This document shows, one piece after another, positions 22,605 to 31,358 of a stretch of 64,000 nt of DNA. The notes beneath the pieces were generated by a model. That model made no database searches and was not told the origin of the DNA. It saw only the letters and a program-made list of their open reading frames with translations. Position 1 is the first letter of the stretch. Each line of letters begins with the position of its first letter. Both the position numbers and the translations under genes were made by a program. The stretch covers positions 1 through 64,000 of the forward strand of contig JAJCZZ010000012.1 in the NCBI GenBank assembly GCA_029262115.1, read 5' to 3'. The DNA comes from Gemmatimonadota bacterium (GTDB lineage: Bacteria > Gemmatimonadota > Gemmatimonadetes > Longimicrobiales > Gaopeijiaceae).

Positions 22605-22982
22605 CTAGCCACCGTCTGGCACGGTGTCGGTAGCCGTGGGATGGATGATCGTGGCGCCCGGCGCCGCCGACTGGGCGCGTTCGAGGGCGGTAGTGGCAGC
22701 CTCCGTGTTTCCCCGACGGTGTTCCACCATGTAGATGCCGAACCAGCCCGCCGCGTGGTCGGGATCCAGCTCCGACGCCGCCCGGTACTGCGCGAGGGCC
22801 GCATCCATGTCCCCCGCACGGTACGCGTTTGACCCCGAATCCAGTGCGGCCACGAGCTCAGGAGCAAGCTGCGCGCGCGTGGCGCTCCCACGCGGATCGA
22901 GGGAGCCGGTATCCTGGTCGGCCGGCCGACATCCGGCAAGGAGGACGAGGGATGCGCAAGAGATCGCCAGAGCACGGATCAT
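22605..22982 (-). CDS. TPR-containing lipoprotein at the end of the cytochrome operon
   Basis: This 125-residue protein has a lipoprotein signal peptide (SCASLVLLAGC, lipidated Cys at residue 18). It contains one or two tetratricopeptide-like units (ALDSGSNAYRAGDMDAALAQYRAASELDPDHA onward). TPR lipoproteins usually act as assembly or scaffold factors. Its ATG at 22982 overlaps the stop of the 16-haem cytochrome (ATGA). It is the fifth and last gene of the operon, so it may help assemble or anchor the cytochromes. It contains no haem motif. Confidence 0.8.
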   Translation of the reverse strand: MIRALAISCASLVLLAGCRPADQDTGSLDPRGSATRAQLAPELVAALDSGSNAYRAGDMDAALAQYRAASELDPDHAAGWFGIYMVEHRRGNTEAATTALERAQSAAPGATIIHPTATDTVPDGG

Positions 22983-24460
22983 TGAATGTTCCCGAAAGGT
23001 GACCGGAGGTGGCAGGCCGCACAGATTCGGGGATTTCGATCCCAGGCACGCCTCGCGTCGAAGTTCGGCGCGTGAGGGCTGATCCGGAATGCTCCTCTTT
23101 GGCTATGGCACTGCAGACAGTCGTTCTGCCGATGACAGCTGGCGCAGGTCTCGAGGCCCTGACGGGCCGCCTGCCCATGCCGTAGGAGCCATGCCGGTTC
23201 CGCATCGTGGTAGTCCGAGCCGAGGCGCCCGGACGAGCCCAGGCCGGCCTGCGTATGGCAGTCCCTGCAAAACCGCTCCGCATCGTGACACGCCGAACAC
23301 TCTGAGGTCCCGCCGAAGGCGGCGCTGGCGTGGCGGAGCGCAAAGTTCTCTGGGTGGAAGACCGTGGGTCCTGCCGCGTCGTGGCAGGACACGCACGACG
23401 GCGGCTCGTGGCATGTGGCACACGAGCCGGGGGCGGCGGCGGCCAGAGTCGAGTGCCCGGTCATGAAGAACGGGCTGAGGTGGCTGTCTGGCGCAGCCCG
23501 TTGGAGGCCGACTCCCGGCGCGGTGACCGCCCCCCTCATGGGCATCGCCGCAAGAAATGTCGTCAACTCGACGTGGCAGCTCGCGCAGTCGTCCTGGGTG
23601 TGGCAGGTGGCGCACTCGGCTCGAGCGTCGGACTCGGCCAATCCGCGACCGTGCTCCCCAAGGAACGATCGATCGGCGTGGGCCGTCGGGACCGGATAGT
23701 GTGCCACGGCGTCGGGCACCGTCACACCGGGGAACGCGGTGGGAATGGCTCGAATGGCGGGACGCTCCGAGTCCACGTGACACGCTTCGCACCGTTGCTG
23801 GACGTGACACGTGGCGCACGCACCCGTTCCGACCCGGGCGGTCTCGGCGTGGTCGAGCCGGATAAACGATCCCGAGAGGTGGTCGGGTGGAATCGGGAGT
23901 GAGACGAGCGCTGCACCTGACAGGCGCGACGCAGCCGCGGTCACGTGGCAGGTTTCACACGCGGTTCCTCCCAGGTGGTCTTCCGGGGCTCCCTCGTGAC
24001 AGTCGAGGCAACGTCCCGCGTCAAGCGCCTCGACGTCCATCCGACGATCCGGATCACCCCCGTGGCAGGCACGGCACGAGGCTGCTTCCTCTCCGTCGTC
24101 GCGCAGGGCACCCGCATGATCCGGGTGATCGAAGCTGAGGAGAGACGGGTCGTCGCTCGGGGGGCTCCACTCGACCCGAGTGAGTTCGACACCGTCGTGG
24201 CAGCCGACGCAGGAGGCTAGCGTCGGGTACATGGCGCCCGTGCCGTCTCCGGCTGCGGCCTGGTGGCACCCCGCGCACAGCGGAAAGAGCCCTTCATGGT
24301 CGGCGTGAGGGAACGAGTCGGCGGCCACCTGAAGAGCCACCGTCGCCGTGCGGGTCGGCCCTTCGGCCGGCCAGGAGCCGACCAGGATCGAGAACAGCCC
24401 GAGCGAAAGGACGAGCTTGATGACCAGCGAGTCGGAGATCCCCATAACACCGGTCCTCAT
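22979..24460 (-). CDS. Exported multihaem c-type cytochrome, 16 CxxCH motifs
   Basis: The 493-residue protein starts with a signal sequence (VIKLVLSLGLFSILVGSW, near 13-30). I count 16 CxxCH haem-binding motifs, from CAGCH after residue 60 to CAACH near the C-terminus, spread along the whole chain with many extra histidines for bis-His ligation. It should carry electrons in the periplasm or inside an outer-membrane barrel. Starts at 24460 or 24445 are both possible; 24460 overlaps the barrel gene by 4 bp. The order barrel then soluble cytochrome resembles porin-cytochrome conduits, but the cytochrome family itself was not recognised. Confidence 0.88.
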   Translation of the reverse strand: MRTGVMGISDSLVIKLVLSLGLFSILVGSWPAEGPTRTATVALQVAADSFPHADHEGLFPLCAGCHQAAAGDGTGAMYPTLASCVGCHDGVELTRVEWSPPSDDPSLLSFDHPDHAGALRDDGEEAASCRACHGGDPDRRMDVEALDAGRCLDCHEGAPEDHLGGTACETCHVTAAASRLSGAALVSLPIPPDHLSGSFIRLDHAETARVGTGACATCHVQQRCEACHVDSERPAIRAIPTAFPGVTVPDAVAHYPVPTAHADRSFLGEHGRGLAESDARAECATCHTQDDCASCHVELTTFLAAMPMRGAVTAPGVGLQRAAPDSHLSPFFMTGHSTLAAAAPGSCATCHEPPSCVSCHDAAGPTVFHPENFALRHASAAFGGTSECSACHDAERFCRDCHTQAGLGSSGRLGSDYHDAEPAWLLRHGQAARQGLETCASCHRQNDCLQCHSQRGAFRISPHAPNFDARRAWDRNPRICAACHLRSPFGNIQ

Positions 24461-25953
24461 GGCACTCGCCCCCCCAGGACCCGACCGCGAAGGCCCGGGT
24501 CACGGCCGAGGGCGACACGAAGCGAGAGCCAACCCCGATCCTGACTCCACGCATCGATGCTGGGGCCTCCTGCCGGATCTGCATCCCAGAGACGGTAGCG
24601 AAGCACTCCTCCGCTCACGCCCACCCTCTCCGTAACCTGCGCCACGCCGGACAAGCCTCCGCCGATGGCGCGGCCGTCGCCGAGCCGGAACTCCTCGAAC
24701 CGTTGGAAGGTGACTCCGGTGACGTCGAGTCGCACGTCCGGCGACGCGCTCCAGGACACTCGAGCGTTCGCGCCCGAGAGGAACGCTCCAGGAAGCCAAT
24801 CGATCTCGTAGGTCGACGACACCGAGACGTCTCGGCTGGCACCCCAGGTCGCACCCACCTCCCCCCGCCATCCCCGGTCCTCCAGGGCGGACAGGAAGAC
24901 CGGGCTGTCGGAGGCACCGTACCGTCGGGCCGCCCCGCTCGCCCAGACCCCGAGAGCCGGACGGGGGGACGCGCTGACCCGAAGGCCCACCTCATGGTAC
25001 GGAACCGGGTCGAAGAAGCCCCAGATCGTCGATAGTTCGAAGTACGGCACGTACCGTCGGGCGCTCAACTCCGCCAGGACAGTGGACGAAGGCGCCCACG
25101 AGGCCGTCACGTGGGCCTTCCCCACCCTACCGAACGCGAAGTCCCAGTCGGCGGAGCCGGTCACCCGGACGGGGGCCAAAGCGAGGGAGCGGATATCCAG
25201 CGACGCACGCTCGGACACGAGGCCCGACCGGTCGCTCCAGATCTCACGCTGGTAGCGCAGGCCCACGGACGTGCTTCCGGCGAGGCGCCCCGAGAACGCC
25301 CCGCCCACGAGCCAGGCATTCCGATCCGGCACGAAGCTCTCAAAACCGCGCAGCGCCTCGTGCCGTGGCTCGGAGAGCCCGCGTGCCAGGCTTCGCCCGC
25401 CGAACGCCTCGATGCGAGCCCCCGCGCCCAGGCTATGGAGCGCCACCCCCACGCTCGCCCCGTCGTATGCGGTGAAGCCGAGTCCGGAAGCGTTCTCCTG
25501 GCGGCCCAGTCGAACACGCCATCCCGCTCGCTCGAGCTGTGCGAACAGGAGCATCACATCGAGGCGGTCATCCGCGCGTGGCCACCCGATCTCGTCACCC
25601 GAATCGACACGACCGCGCAGGAGGCTCGTGAAGCTCAGACCACGCATTCCCAGGCCCCACGCGGTCAGTGAGAGGTCCTGCAAACCGGACCAAGCCCGAC
25701 CGGGCGATGTCGGCGCAAGGCGGGCCGAGGAGGCGGGAGAAAGGATGGGTAGCTCCACGAACCGCCCGGTGGTCGTTGCCCAACCGCGGACGCCCTGGGC
25801 CTCAACTGATCCGACTGCGAGCGAGACGACCGCGCCGCATGTGAGAATCAAACGGCCAAGGACCCCAGCAACGCCCGACGATCGGCCGGCGCGGGTGAAA
25901 ACCACCCGCGATGACACCGCCCGCATGTTTGCCTCTGCGCGCCGACGGGTCAT
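24457..25953 (-). CDS. Predicted outer-membrane beta-barrel of the cytochrome operon
   Basis: The protein has 498 residues from the ATG at 25953, which overlaps the previous stop and follows GGAGG. After a signal peptide ending near AVGSVEAQG, the rest is rich in alternating hydrophobic/polar strands with aromatic girdles (for example RVRLGRQENASGLGFTAYDG, VGLRYQREIWSD, YFELSTIWGFFDPVPYHEVG). Tight turns recur about every 10-20 residues and cysteines are almost absent from the mature part, as expected of a porin. By position between multihaem cytochromes it is the likely sheath of a porin-cytochrome complex, analogous to MtrB or OmbB. No sequence family was recognised. Confidence 0.75.
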   Translation of the reverse strand: MTRRRAEANMRAVSSRVVFTRAGRSSGVAGVLGRLILTCGAVVSLAVGSVEAQGVRGWATTTGRFVELPILSPASSARLAPTSPGRAWSGLQDLSLTAWGLGMRGLSFTSLLRGRVDSGDEIGWPRADDRLDVMLLFAQLERAGWRVRLGRQENASGLGFTAYDGASVGVALHSLGAGARIEAFGGRSLARGLSEPRHEALRGFESFVPDRNAWLVGGAFSGRLAGSTSVGLRYQREIWSDRSGLVSERASLDIRSLALAPVRVTGSADWDFAFGRVGKAHVTASWAPSSTVLAELSARRYVPYFELSTIWGFFDPVPYHEVGLRVSASPRPALGVWASGAARRYGASDSPVFLSALEDRGWRGEVGATWGASRDVSVSSTYEIDWLPGAFLSGANARVSWSASPDVRLDVTGVTFQRFEEFRLGDGRAIGGGLSGVAQVTERVGVSGGVLRYRLWDADPAGGPSIDAWSQDRGWLSLRVALGRDPGLRGRVLGGRVP

Positions 25954-27488
25954 CGCCGGCCTCCCGTGGGCTCCGGCAGGGCATGGCACTCGATGCAGTT
26001 CTCTTCCGGCCTGTGGTCCTCCATGTCCTGGTGGCAGGACACGCAGAAGTCTCGTGTCCGTGGGATCGCCGCCACCCGGGGCGGCGCCTCCACATGGCAC
26101 GTCACGCAGTCCACGTGCGCATCGACCGTATGCGCGTCGTCCGGAGGATCAAGGTGGCACGACGCGCACCTCACGTCTGGCTCATGATGCTCCTCGTGGC
26201 AGCCCACACAGCTGACGTCCTCCGCCGACAGGATGGTGCCTTCCGTATGGCAGGACGCGCAGTTCACCGCCGCGTGGGAGGGATGGTCGAAGTCCATCGA
26301 GCGCGTGCCCGCGTCGCCGATGGAGGGAGTGAAGGGCCGTACGACCGGCAGGACCGCCTCGGGGGTTTCGCCGGCGGAATGGCAGCTCGTGCAATCCCCG
26401 ACGACTGGCTCCGTGTGGTGGCACGAGAGGCAGTCCTGGGGTGACGACAACGTCACCTGACCATGGCTTTCGACGGTCTCATGACACGAGGCACAGTCCA
26501 CGTCGGTGTGCTGTGAGTGGTCGAAGTCGCGCGTGACTCCAGGCGCGCTCGCCTGTGTGTCCTGGTGACAGGCGGCGCATTCACTGCCGTCCACCGTGAA
26601 CACATGCGCGGTGTGGCAAACGCTGCAGTCGGCGACGGTCTCATCGGAGAGGCCGACGTGATGGGGAGTCAAGCCCACCGGGTCGGCGTGGCACTGGGCG
26701 GTCGCGCAGGTCTGGACCGCTTCCGCGGGCGCGCTCTGCGCGTGCGGGTTGTGGCAGGCTCCGCACGACTGCTCGTGCGGCTCGTCGTCGGGCATGTCCA
26801 CCAGGAGCTGCATTTCGTGGCACGCCAGGCATTCGTTCTGCTGCGGGCGCATGGCCGTAGCCAACTCGCCCGAGCCGACGTCCGCATTGAAGCCGTGACA
26901 CGAGGCGCAATGGATGGTCAGGTCGCTCATGCGACCCAACTGGATGTCCACGTCCGTATGGCACCCCGACTGCGCGCACGTCTTGTCCGTGGCCGCGAAT
27001 TCGTGCACCGACGTCGAATGACAGCGCACACACGCCAGGTCCTGCAATTCCGAGTCGTCGGACTCGAAGTGGACGCGGTGCCCCGCCGTGTTGGCGATGT
27101 CCTCCCATTCCTCGGACCCCGCGTTCACGTGGCACCCTTCGCACTTGGCGTTTTCCACCTCCGCATGCACCCCGAGGCTATCCGGGTTCTCCAGGATCTG
27201 GGTGAGCCCCATCTGCGAGCGGGCCAGCAGCGTGGGCTTGTGGCACTCCTTGCACCCCAGGTCGGCGTGCGCGCTCGCCGCGAAACGCTCGTACGGGTCC
27301 TGCATCAGGTGGCACGACAGGCAGAACTCGTTGTCGTGTTCGATCCAATCGTAGGTGCGGTAGCCCAGGGCCGCGGAACCGGCTACGAGCGCGAGCCCCG
27401 CAACCACGAGGCCCGCCATCGCGGGCCCCGAGAGTGCCGAAAGGCGGCGCCTCACCCGAGACGCCGCCCCCCGCGTCCTACCGGACAC
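25950..27488 (-). CDS. Membrane-anchored multihaem cytochrome with NapC/NirT-like start, 20 haem motifs
   Basis: The 512-residue protein has one N-terminal transmembrane helix (AMAGLVVAGLALVAGSAALGY, about 23-43) followed at once by a NapC/NirT/NrfH-like section (FCLSCHLMQDPYERF, GCKECHKPTLLARSQMGL). NapC-type proteins oxidise quinols in the inner membrane. The chain continues far beyond the usual four haems: I count 18 CxxCH motifs plus two CX4CH motifs (CAQSGCH and CATAQCH), 20 in all. It could carry electrons from the quinone pool across the periplasm. It lies 24 bp after the lipoprotein cytochrome and overlaps the barrel gene by 4 bp. Confidence 0.88.
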   Translation of the reverse strand: MSGRTRGAASRVRRRLSALSGPAMAGLVVAGLALVAGSAALGYRTYDWIEHDNEFCLSCHLMQDPYERFAASAHADLGCKECHKPTLLARSQMGLTQILENPDSLGVHAEVENAKCEGCHVNAGSEEWEDIANTAGHRVHFESDDSELQDLACVRCHSTSVHEFAATDKTCAQSGCHTDVDIQLGRMSDLTIHCASCHGFNADVGSGELATAMRPQQNECLACHEMQLLVDMPDDEPHEQSCGACHNPHAQSAPAEAVQTCATAQCHADPVGLTPHHVGLSDETVADCSVCHTAHVFTVDGSECAACHQDTQASAPGVTRDFDHSQHTDVDCASCHETVESHGQVTLSSPQDCLSCHHTEPVVGDCTSCHSAGETPEAVLPVVRPFTPSIGDAGTRSMDFDHPSHAAVNCASCHTEGTILSAEDVSCVGCHEEHHEPDVRCASCHLDPPDDAHTVDAHVDCVTCHVEAPPRVAAIPRTRDFCVSCHQDMEDHRPEENCIECHALPEPTGGRR

Positions 27489-27512
27489 GATCAGTCCCGA
27501 GCCCCGGAGGGC

Positions 27513-28949
27513 TCAATCCTGCCCCGCCGTGCTCCCACCCAGGATCCGCTGCATGTTCAGGTGGGTGGAGCTGGTGAGGCCGTACTCCTCCTTCACTTCG
27601 CGGATCGAGGCAATCAGAAGTGCCTCCGTGAGAACCGGGTTGTGCACGGCAGACCCACCGATGCGCGCCAGATCGGCGTTGAACTTCGATCCTTCGCCGA
27701 CGGTGTAACGGCTATCATCGGTGCTGAACTCGCTCTCCGGCACCTGCGCCAGGAGCGCTTCAAGTTCGTCCGCGAGGCTGTTCAGGCGTGACTGCGCGTT
27801 CGCCAGCAGCGCTCGCGCCGTATTCTCCGTGCCGTGACAGCCTGCGGTCGTGCACGTCTGGAACGTCTTCTCGGACTCCTCGCACGCCCCACCCGCGACC
27901 GGCTTCCCGGTCGGGTCCAGGCACGGTACGGCCTCGAATACATGCCCCGTGGCCTGGAACGTGAAGTCACCTGTGGCCGCATCGGTCACGGTGAAGGAGT
28001 TCACGTGGCAGCCCGCGCACAGACGTGGGTTCCGCTCCGACCCGTGCGTCGCCACGATGGGCCCGTTGAACTCCAGCGACGGCGGCCACCACCCCGCCGT
28101 ACCGACCAGGAGCGGTCCTTGCGGTGAATGCGGACCACGGAACGAGGTCGGGTCCGGCGTGCCACGCTTGTGGTGGCAGCGCATACAAAGGTTCTGCTCC
28201 TCGTTCGCCACGTCGATCGGGAAGCGGAGCTGAGCCGTGTTCTCCGAGCCGTGCGGGTCGTGACAGACCGCGCAGGTGATGGCCATGTGCTCACCGGGCT
28301 GTTCCAACGACGCCTTCTCGATGTAATCGGCGTCGACGCCCCACGTCTTCAGCGCGCCCTCACCCGTATGGCAGGATTCGCACTCCGCGCGGCCGGCGGG
28401 GAATGCATTCACGCTCCCGTGCGCCGACTGTGACCACTCCTCGACGAACGGATGGTGCGTGCCTTGGTGGCACTCCGCGCACCCCTGCGTCAGATCCTGT
28501 CCAACCGCCATCGAGGCAAACGGCTGCGTCGCCTCCGGATCCGTAACGTGGTCGAGTCCCGGCCCATGGCAACTTTCGCACGACACGTCATGATAGCGAT
28601 CCTCGCCCGTGGCCTCGAAGCCGGCCACGCCCTCGATGAGGTTGCCGTTCTCCCCCACCGTGTGGCACCCGTTGCAGAACTCCTGCTGCCCCCCGCTGTT
28701 GACGAGTGTGGCCCAGGCGTCCGAGTGCTGTGAGCCTTCCCACTGCGACTGCGTACCGACGTGGCAGTTGCCGCACGTGGTTGTCTTGTTCGCCTGGTCG
28801 CTGTATCCGAGAAAGCCCATCGCCTGCGTCAGCGGCTCCTCGAAGAGCTCTCGATCCTGAAACACGATCTTCTCGTCGACGCACGCCGCTGCGAAAAGCG
28901 CAGCGAGTGCCGGTAGGACAAGCGCGAATCTTTTGGCTCGCGTGATCAT
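27513..28949 (-). CDS. Lipoprotein multihaem cytochrome, 9 haem motifs, first gene of the operon
   Basis: The 478-residue protein has a lipoprotein signal peptide (VLPALAALFAAACVDEK, lipidated Cys23). Eight CxxCH motifs (from CGNCH to CAGCH) and one CX4CH motif (CTTAGCH) follow. The last ~100 residues lack haem sites and look helical. Motifs such as CESCHGPG and CAVCHDPHG occur in cytochrome c554-like and extracellular decahaem proteins. As a lipoprotein paired with a porin it is the best candidate for the outer-surface end of the conduit, though the side of the membrane is inference. AGAGGACC precedes the ATG, and a sigma70-like promoter lies about 65-90 bp upstream. Confidence 0.88.
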   Translation of the reverse strand: MITRAKRFALVLPALAALFAAACVDEKIVFQDRELFEEPLTQAMGFLGYSDQANKTTTCGNCHVGTQSQWEGSQHSDAWATLVNSGGQQEFCNGCHTVGENGNLIEGVAGFEATGEDRYHDVSCESCHGPGLDHVTDPEATQPFASMAVGQDLTQGCAECHQGTHHPFVEEWSQSAHGSVNAFPAGRAECESCHTGEGALKTWGVDADYIEKASLEQPGEHMAITCAVCHDPHGSENTAQLRFPIDVANEEQNLCMRCHHKRGTPDPTSFRGPHSPQGPLLVGTAGWWPPSLEFNGPIVATHGSERNPRLCAGCHVNSFTVTDAATGDFTFQATGHVFEAVPCLDPTGKPVAGGACEESEKTFQTCTTAGCHGTENTARALLANAQSRLNSLADELEALLAQVPESEFSTDDSRYTVGEGSKFNADLARIGGSAVHNPVLTEALLIASIREVKEEYGLTSSTHLNMQRILGGSTAGQD

Positions 28950-29059: not shown

Positions 29060-29578
29060 CTATTTCGTATCCTGCCGAGACGGAACGGCGAGATGACCGC
29101 CTGCGATCGCCCGGAGGACGTCCATGGTCGTGACGATACCGACCAGTCTCTGGCCATCGAGGACCACCGCCCGATGGATACGGCCTCGCGAGAGAAACTC
29201 CGCCAACTCCTTCACGGACGTGGACGGACTCACGCCGAAGCTCACATCGGTCATGATATCGGCGACCGTCATCACGTCCCGTGTGGAGGCGTCGACACGC
29301 GACCAGTCGAGAACCATCAAGTCGGGTTCGTCGGGCAGGTGGTAGGAGTGCTCCACGTCGGGCAAGCCGCTATGCTCTACCAGGTCCAGGGTGGAGTCGT
29401 CGGCCGCCTTGCGAATGATGTCGGTTGCGGACACCACTCCAACGAGGGCACCATCTTCGGTGACAACCGGAGCCCCCGATATGTCCCGATCGGACAGGAA
29501 GCGAGTCAACTCGCGGAGGGTGGCGTCGGGGCGAACCGACGCGACGTTACGCTGCATGATGTCGGAAACGGTTCTCAT
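29060..29578 (-). CDS. CBS-domain pair protein
   Basis: The 172-residue protein is made of two CBS modules (VSDIMQRNVASVRPDATLRE near 4-23 and VADIMTDVSFGVSPSTSVKE near 106-125), each ending in a GVVSATDI / GIVTTMDV-type strand. CBS pairs bind adenosyl ligands such as AMP, ATP or NADH and sense energy state. No effector domain is attached. It lies upstream of the cytochrome operon on the same strand with a 110-bp gap that holds that operon's own promoter, so co-regulation is possible but unproven. The ATG at 29578 is used; upstream in-frame sequence is not CBS-like. Confidence 0.88.
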   Translation of the reverse strand: MRTVSDIMQRNVASVRPDATLRELTRFLSDRDISGAPVVTEDGALVGVVSATDIIRKAADDSTLDLVEHSGLPDVEHSYHLPDEPDLMVLDWSRVDASTRDVMTVADIMTDVSFGVSPSTSVKELAEFLSRGRIHRAVVLDGQRLVGIVTTMDVLRAIAGGHLAVPSRQDTK

Positions 29579-29698
29579 CCGGGTAGACTCCAGTGGAGAG
29601 GTGAGCAGGACCGGCACGACGTGTGGCCACACAACCCAAGTTAGGTCGCTGACCCGACTTCCTCCGTGGGGAAATCCACTCACTCGACGTAGGGAGCC

Positions 29699-30718
29699 AT
29701 GAGCCACTACCGAAATATCTTCGAGGCCTCGCCCGACGGCGTGCTGATCGTTGATTCGGGCGGCGTCATCCTGGAGGTCAACCGGAAGACGACGGACCTC
29801 TTCGGCTGGACCGAGGCTGAGCTGGTGGGCTCCGCCGTGGAGAAGCTCATTCCAGAAGCCATTCGGGAACGACATCGTGCGCACCGGGACGCCTACGTGC
29901 AGCGTCCACATCCGAGGGATATGGGCATCGGAGTCCTCCTTCAGGCGGTCCGCAAGGACGGCTCGACCTTCCCGGTCGAAATTGCACTGTCCCCCCTGCC
30001 GGATTCGTCCACCGAATCCGTTCGTGTCGTGGCAACCATTCGCGACGTCACGGAGAGGATTCGACTGCGCGACTTCGGAGCGGCGGCACTTCGCGCGACC
30101 GAAGACGAACGGAAGAGGGTCGCTCAGGAGTTGCACGACGACACGAGCCAACATCTCGCCGCCATCCTAATTCGCCTTCGGCTCGCTGAGCGGAATGCGG
30201 GTGACGACACCCGCGCGCTACTCGAAGAGGTCCGCCACGATCTCATGGAGACGTCCGAGGGGATCCGACGGATCGCCCGAGGTCTTCGACCCCCGGAACT
30301 CGAAGAGGCGGGCCTGGAAGCCGCCGTGCGTGGACGCGTACGCGAGTTCCGCAGGTCGAGCGGTATCCCCGTCCTGGTGGAGATCGAGGACGCCGGGGAC
30401 CTGGATCCCGTCTCGCAACTCGTCCTCTATCGCGTCGTCCAGGAGGCACTCCACAACACGGCACGACACTCGCGAGCCACACACGCGCATGTTCACATCG
30501 GAAGAACGGGTGACCACGTGTTCGTCGAAGTGGGTGACGACGGCGTAGGCTTCGACCTGGCGGACCACGACCACGGGACCCTGGGGATGGGACTCATGGG
30601 CATGCGGGAGCGCGTGGCTTCAGTCTCAGGCCGCATCACGATCGAGAGCGCTCCCCTCGAGGGAACCACGGTCAAGGCGCGACTTCCCTGCCGCACGCCG
30701 AGGATTGCCCGTGTCTAA
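29699..30718 (+). CDS. PAS-domain sensor histidine kinase, NarX/DegS class
   Basis: The 339-residue protein is soluble, with no membrane segment. The PAS domain covers about 1-120 ([19 protein letters not shown]). The HisKA_3 dimerisation helix has phospho-acceptor His146 in [14 protein letters not shown]. The HATPase domain has [13 protein letters not shown] (N box) and GDDGVGFD / [14 protein letters not shown] (G boxes). The stop overlaps the start of the downstream NarL-type regulator, so the two form a two-component system. No haem-binding or FAD-binding residue can be assigned in the PAS domain by eye. The signal could be redox-related, given the adjacent cytochrome operon, but that is only proximity. 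Confidence 0.9.
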
Positions 30719-31358
30719 GGTTCGCGTCCTCCTGGTTGACGACCACCGTGTGTGCCGAACCGGCGTTCGGGCGCTCATCGAGACCGAGGCGCATGCCGAG
30801 GTCGTCGGGGAAGCGGACGACGGCGAGCAAGCCGTGGAGATGGCGCTCGCGCTGAAGCCCGACGTGATCGTCATGGATCTGTCGATGCCGGAGATGAACG
30901 GCCTGGAGGCTACCCGCAGGATCAACGCCCTCGGGCTCGGCTCCCGGGTGCTGATCCTGACCGTTCACGGGGAGGAGGAGTACCTCATTCCGGTCATCGA
31001 CGCCGGCGCGTGTGGATATGTCACGAAGATCGCGGCACACCGTGACCTGGGCCGGGCGCTCGACATCGTAGCGCGGGGCGAGGTGTACCTCCCACCCAAC
31101 GCGACCAAGATGATCCTCAACGAGTATCGCTCCTCGGACGACGAGAGTTCACGCCTTCGGTCGCTGTCACCCCGCGAGCGCGAGGTCCTCGCGCTCACCG
31201 CCGAGGGGTACAGTTCGCGCGAGGTCGGAGAGCGGCTGTTCATCTCTCCGAAGACCGTGGAGACCCACCGGTCTCGGATCATGTCCAAGATCGGCCTCAG
31301 CCACCGCGCCGAACTCGTCCGTTTCGCGCTGAAGGTCGGACTCCTCAAGCAGCCGTAG
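30711..31358 (+). CDS. NarL/FixJ-family response regulator
   Basis: The protein has 215 residues from the GTG at 30711, seven bases after GAGG and overlapping the kinase gene by 8 bp. The receiver domain has VLLVDDHR, phospho-acceptor Asp56 ([13 protein letters not shown]), Thr84 and Lys106. The LuxR-type HTH at the C-terminus reads [40 protein letters not shown] in two stretches. It should be phosphorylated by the coupled PAS kinase and activate sigma70 promoters. Targets cannot be seen; the cytochrome operon 2 kb away is a candidate. Confidence 0.92.

Follow-up and report, generated by a model that had tools for sequence, protein, structure and literature searches.

A five-gene operon of Gemmatimonadota as a probable porin-cytochrome electron conduit of a new sequence family

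The stretch of DNA analysed here (the window) comprises 64,000 nucleotides, positions 1 to 64,000 of contig JAJCZZ010000012.1 in the 5.45-Mb draft genome GCA_029262115.1 of a Gemmatimonadota bacterium, and carries on its minus strand, all within positions 22605-28949, five genes transcribed in the order C9, C20, barrel, C16 and TPR lipoprotein, where C9, C20 and C16 denote cytochromes with nine, 20 and 16 haem motifs and the barrel is a predicted outer-membrane β-barrel. This five-gene system is real, widespread and conserved, and we put at roughly 70% the probability that it is a self-contained electron conduit, in which C16 would be a wire held by the barrel and would link an inner-membrane quinol dehydrogenase to a surface cytochrome. 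Porin-cytochrome conduits are defined by a periplasmic multihaem c-type cytochrome, an outer-membrane protein with transmembrane β-strands and an outer-membrane redox lipoprotein (PMC6148476), and by sequence and prediction the operon has the parts so listed, at putative locations.

Motifs, junctions and gene order

A previous reading of the window made from the letters alone (the sequence-only reading) had credited the three cytochromes with 9, 20 and 16 motifs, and a recount returned the same numbers, 45 in total, of which 42 are CX2CH and three CX4CH; the figure of 45 haems is predicted from motifs and includes the three CX4CH. Shuffling the residues of each cytochrome 500 times left on average 0.03 to 0.25 CX2CH motifs per sequence and never more than 2, and the real counts are thus far above those of shuffled sequence. 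The last four genes, likewise described as linked by 4-bp overlaps, indeed share an ATGA at each of three junctions (C20/barrel, barrel/C16 and C16/TPR), and the gap between C9 and C20 is 24 bp.

Among relatives the next listed gene after the barrel belongs to the C16 family at 34 of 35 distinct barrel loci (L022-L058), the contig of the 35th ending at the barrel, and the barrel-C16 coupling thus holds in relatives. L039-L041, which duplicate L025, L026 and L028, do not enter this count, and L037, whose split barrel and C9 frames occupy two rows, was counted once. The order C9-C20-barrel-C16 is kept in 19 of the 35 loci, among them L037 with its split C9, L042 with a 9-motif C20 frame and L054 with an 18-motif C16, and the TPR gene is also present in 12 of these 19. 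Since the adjacency of barrel and C16 is constant and the presence of C9 and C20 variable, barrel and C16 can be regarded as the constant core of the system, the input and output parts of which vary. In one genome a second, paralogous cluster (L024:14362-19479, minus strand) consists of a 10-motif cytochrome, a barrel, a relative of C16 with 16 motifs and a 9-motif protein that ends in a hydrophobic segment. In L026 and L027 the main cluster is followed downstream by proteins of the same two kinds as the 10-motif cytochrome and the hydrophobic-ended 9-motif protein.

The predicted barrel and its family

The barrel gene (24457..25953, minus strand) is read from the ATG at 25953 as a protein of 498 residues, an alternative 547-residue GTG frame extending back into C20. 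AlphaFold2, supplied with a 120-sequence alignment, predicts a barrel of 22 strands over residues 54 to 483 (mean predicted local distance difference test score, pLDDT, 84.9; predicted template modelling score 0.79), preceded by a helix and devoid of a plug, and the matches of this model in fold searches (Foldseek, VIA) are barrels, including MtrB and siderophore receptors. The outer-membrane barrel proposed earlier is thereby corroborated by modelling, a result without a barrel having been named as grounds for abandoning the conduit, and by prediction the 498-residue protein is the outer-membrane transmembrane β-strand protein of the conduit definition.

At the level of sequence no Pfam or NCBIfam model matched the barrel at E 0.1, and no PDB chain was matched by its family profile, the likeness to MtrB being one of fold alone. 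The MtrB/PioB barrel model (PF11854) gave no match at E 0.1 in the window barrel or in 32 family members, and in the genome of the window nothing exceeded its cut-off, a search that lacks a positive control since the control genomes also gave none. The sequence-only reading had recognised no known conduit family in the operon, and the barrel matches none of the conduit porins compared, namely MtrB/PioB and the PDB chains, with the OmbB/Ext porins outside the comparison.

The barrel family comprises 617 proteins at E 0.001 (7995 candidates scored) and is present in 116 of 395 Gemmatimonadota genomes, in 84 of the 286 most complete ones, and in 28 of the 98 nearest relatives of the window genome, which makes its distribution patchy. 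A scan of named genomes with two peptide patterns, in which 17 of 37 stretches were confirmed, returned barrel loci from Gemmatimonadota in 17 of 17 cases. Homologue lists, here and below, are the best 120 of 617 (barrel), 833 (C16) and 2844 (C9), those of the barrel and C9 including the query, and the identity of the barrel to its listed relatives is mostly 44-52%. Most barrel relatives have a loop with two conserved Cys before the second strand (alignment A2, columns 133 and 141), which is missing from the barrel of the window as well as from P0002 and P0004, two relatives close to it.

C16 as a likely modular wire

C16 (22979..24460, minus strand; 493 residues, 16 CX2CH) is likely a wire in or under the barrel. 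It has a hydrophobic N-terminus and 16 non-motif His conserved at 97-100% in 121 sequences, a number of candidate ligands equal to that of its motifs, as would be expected of a wire of bis-His haems. From the sixth onward the motifs are paired at a distance of 9 or 10 residues, the last one being single, and motif counts elsewhere in the family are 9 (L050), 10 (L049), 11 (L056) and 18 (L054 and L058), with an internal stretch missing in L049 and L056 and an internal stretch repeated in L054 and L058; L048 (13 motifs) and L051 (11), in which the C16 frame is possibly broken, were excluded from this argument on modules. A small tetrahaem protein is encoded beside the short relative in each of L049, L050 and L056, joined in the first two by a four-motif protein resembling four class I domains, as if separate carriers stood in for the missing modules. 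C16 is mostly 45-53% identical to its listed relatives and gave no match to the MtrA/DmsE decahaem family (TIGR03508).

C20 and the putative quinol side

C20 (25950..27488, minus strand; 512 residues, 18 CX2CH and two CX4CH) is likely a quinol dehydrogenase and periplasmic wire in one. It passes the cut-off of the NapC/NirT domain PF03264 (25.9 bits against 24.1) and has one N-terminal transmembrane-like segment, a putative membrane anchor, so that the sequence marks of a NapC/NirT quinol dehydrogenase are both present; its first motif is CX2CH, and it matches NrfH (2j7a_C, E 5.3e-7). Against the NrfH equivalog model it scores 36.1, below the cut-off of 134.2, and against TIGR03508 30.0 bits, again below the cut-off (192.2). 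A Met following the first motif is the NrfH pattern for haem 1, and in 22 C20 sequences, pre-selected for 19 to 21 motifs, such a Met is conserved at 91% and 19 non-motif His are invariant, three more being conserved at 82-86%; the 20 motifs are thus paralleled by 19 invariant free His and the NrfH-type Met. The quinol-dehydrogenase-like character ascribed to this protein by the sequence-only reading is consequently borne out by its NapC/NrfH-like start, which holds in relatives. In the deeper lineages L054, L046, L057, L055 and L038 two transmembrane-like segments, not one, precede the first motif.

C9 and the putative acceptor side

C9 (27513..28949, minus strand; 478 residues, eight CX2CH and one CX4CH) is likely the surface terminal reductase. 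Its earlier description as a lipoprotein agrees with the lipobox column of Cys23, which is Cys in 116 of the 120 listed family members, and all 120 have the ninth motif (CX2CH or CX4CH), the Cys pair (343, 356) and nine free His, a tenth being present in 105. In profile comparison positions 85-448 align to residues 303-669 of OcwA, a surface reductase of Thermincola (6qvm_A, E 7.4e-15), a likeness that went unnoticed in the sequence-only reading, which is otherwise supported.

Alongside OcwA the profile matches in the PDB an octahaem nitrite reductase at E 2.1e-6 (8rv0_Y) and, at E 2.3e-4, cytochrome c554 (1bvb_A), and C9 also passes the cut-off of the general Pfam cytochrome c554 model. The main rival explanation, for which the nitrite reductase and c554 matches speak, is a periplasmic NrfHA-like reductase. 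In it C20 would be the quinol dehydrogenase and C9 would reduce a soluble acceptor, for instance nitrite or hydroxylamine, while the barrel would serve as a porin for the substrate and C16 would store electrons, and the NrfH-like start of C20, the OcwA match and the fact that OcwA reduces nitrite would all suit such an enzyme. CX2CK is however the catalytic motif of NrfA, and neither C9 nor C20 has any CX2C lacking a following His and hence any NrfA-type CX2CK. In addition none of the NrfA, Otr and HAO families of NCBIfam was over its cut-off, and the barrel-C16 pair persists where C9 or C20 is absent, all of which makes the NrfHA-like enzyme rather improbable. A clear match to nitrite or tetrathionate reduction had been named in advance as something that would tell against a conduit, but no gene exceeded an NCBIfam cut-off for such a reductase, C9 passing only the Pfam cut-off of the general c554 domain.

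A different topology, which would put C9 inside the barrel and have C16 relay electrons in the periplasm from C20 to C9, draws on the observations that residues 90-264 of C9 match MtrA (6r2q_A, E 2.4e-4), a cytochrome that MtrB encloses, and that C9 matches the MtrA/DmsE family TIGR03508 with 50.0 bits, albeit far from its cut-off of 192.2. It is nonetheless made very unlikely by the facts that C16, and not C9, is what constantly adjoins the barrel (34/35 loci), that C9 carries a lipobox (116/120 listed), and that its closer and longer match is to OcwA.

Proposed mechanism

We infer the locations, contacts, direction of flow and acceptor, and give C20, C16 and C9 their places in the path because of homology, prediction and the coupling of their genes. 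With its one N-terminal helix as anchor, C20 would oxidise quinol at the first haem, which is of the NrfH type, and its other 19 haems would carry the electrons across the periplasm to C16, which, either seated within the plugless barrel or docked beneath it, would move them through the outer membrane to C9. The latter, as an OcwA-like nine-haem lipoprotein, may then reduce minerals, shuttles or other outside acceptors, and the TPR lipoprotein may aid assembly. The reverse, an inward wire from outside donors such as Fe(II) to the quinone pool, deserves mention since other porin-cytochrome wires are used to oxidise Fe(II) (PMC5566968) and the direction of flow is not fixed by sequence, but the resemblance of C20 to quinol dehydrogenases of the NrfH group and of C9 to a terminal reductase leaves it with a very small share of our confidence.

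Several observations weigh against the outward conduit. OcwA has His enough for nine bis-His haems yet one or more of its haems are Met-ligated and two belong to the active site, and the His count of C9 therefore does not fix its haem states. Furthermore, C9 is the best-conserved part of the system (with the five closest set aside, its identity to the listed relatives is 54-65%), which is opposite to Geobacter conduits, in which no part is swapped as often as the surface lipoprotein (PMC6148476). The model of C16 is weak, with a mean pLDDT of 73 and values mostly below 60 at about residues 30-90 and 350-460, and it matched no solved fold. C9 and C20 are both missing within 4.2 kb upstream in L044, L048 and L050, other clusters lack one of them, the C20 relatives in L022 and L036 are without the NrfH-type start, and a promoter-like site was looked for at the operon and none was found.

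A bolder version may tentatively be put forward, although we would sooner bet against it: a complete quinol-to-surface wire from a single operon, in which a periplasm-spanning 20-haem NrfH-type rod plugs directly into a modular 16-haem wire in a 22-strand barrel with an OcwA-like cap, and no diffusing carrier is needed. Such a conduit would have arisen separately from Mtr and Omb/Ext, would be native to Gemmatimonadota, and would vary its wire length in evolution, from 9 to 18 motifs, as paired-haem modules are gained and lost.

The TPR lipoprotein and flanking genes

The last gene (22605..22982, minus strand) encodes a small protein that exceeds the Pfam cut-offs of TPR_14 and TPR_19 and has the lipobox LLAGC, in keeping with the TPR lipoprotein previously described; its role is perhaps one in assembly. 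On the 5' side the operon is preceded by a CBS-domain gene on the minus strand, 110 bp upstream, and then by a divergent pair on the opposite strand, a PAS histidine kinase and a LuxR-type response regulator. These upstream genes, the CBS-domain one included (29060-31358), may bear on the control of the operon; the other scanned loci gave no CBS match. On the 3' side lies a MacB/FtsX-type permease on the opposite strand. Elsewhere the genome has genes for an eight-motif cytochrome that continues into TPR-like repeats (L060, G000:C29) and for a five-motif protein (L059, G000:C80), which we take to be of the c7 type and to resemble the ActA start of alternative complex III.

Occurrence and meaning in the phylum

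The operon is not described in the available parts of the literature found on extracellular electron transfer, multihaem cytochromes, conduits and porin-cytochromes of Gemmatimonads, the supplements of PMC11475568 (MHCscan) and PMC13264449 being outside that search and possibly holding members. One MtrCAB has been reported in Gemmatimonadetes (PMC8805035) and two ImcH and one CbcL homologue for the phylum (PMC6295460), and extracellular electron transfer had therefore been suggested there earlier, by way of other genes. Porin-cytochrome clusters were furthermore reported in 36 cave metagenome-assembled genomes, of which 26 are assigned to groups other than Gemmatimonadota, and the other 10 could include the present type (PMC13264449). 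If the conduit is real, extracellular respiration would be a common trait of Gemmatimonadota, beyond the one bearer of MtrCAB (PMC8805035), with the reservation that 116/395 refers to the barrel family and not to the full operon. The operon would also join an OcwA-type reductase to an outer-membrane barrel, and may serve as a test case for unrelated conduits reaching one plan.

Comparison with known conduits

The operon shares with MtrCAB of Shewanella the plan of a barrel, a putative multihaem wire and a likely surface lipoprotein cytochrome, and MtrB is among the fold matches of its barrel. That barrel however has no MtrB_PioB match and 22 predicted strands against 26 in MtrB (PMC7198977), the wire has 16 motifs instead of 10 haems, C9 is OcwA-like, and a predicted quinol dehydrogenase is encoded in the same operon. 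With OmbB-OmaB-OmcB and Ext of Geobacter, compared by description only, it would have in common a periplasmic multihaem cytochrome, an outer-membrane protein, which in Ext has 18 to 21 predicted transmembrane segments, and an outer-membrane redox lipoprotein (PMC6148476), but it differs by the 20-motif quinol-dehydrogenase-like gene within it. C9 resembles OcwA of Thermincola potens in its nine haem motifs and in the profile alignment over positions 85-448, although with 478 residues it is shorter than OcwA with its 681, and it is a lipoprotein whose gene lies in an operon with that of a barrel, whereas Thermincola is Gram-positive. Likewise, C20 is akin to NrfH and CymA of the NapC/NirT family in its N-terminal transmembrane-like segment, its NapC/NirT domain and the Met after its first motif, but has 20 motifs and not four, and stays below the NrfH equivalog cut-off. 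It also differs from ImcH, which has three transmembrane segments with an atypical CX3CH beside them (PMC6295460), where C20 has one transmembrane-like segment and a CX2CH. PCC3 and PCC4 similarly pair a porin with large multihaem cytochromes (PMC5566968), but their five-helix inner-membrane protein (PMC5566968) is absent from the five genes, of which C20 is the only one predicted to reside in the inner membrane. The tested marks of MtrCAB, ImcH and PCC3/PCC4 are thus missing from the operon, which most probably represents a porin-cytochrome conduit whose sequence family is new, set apart from OmbB/Ext by description only. Porin-cytochrome conduits as such are already known, and what is new here is the sequence family, the 20-haem quinol dehydrogenase and the OcwA-like end.
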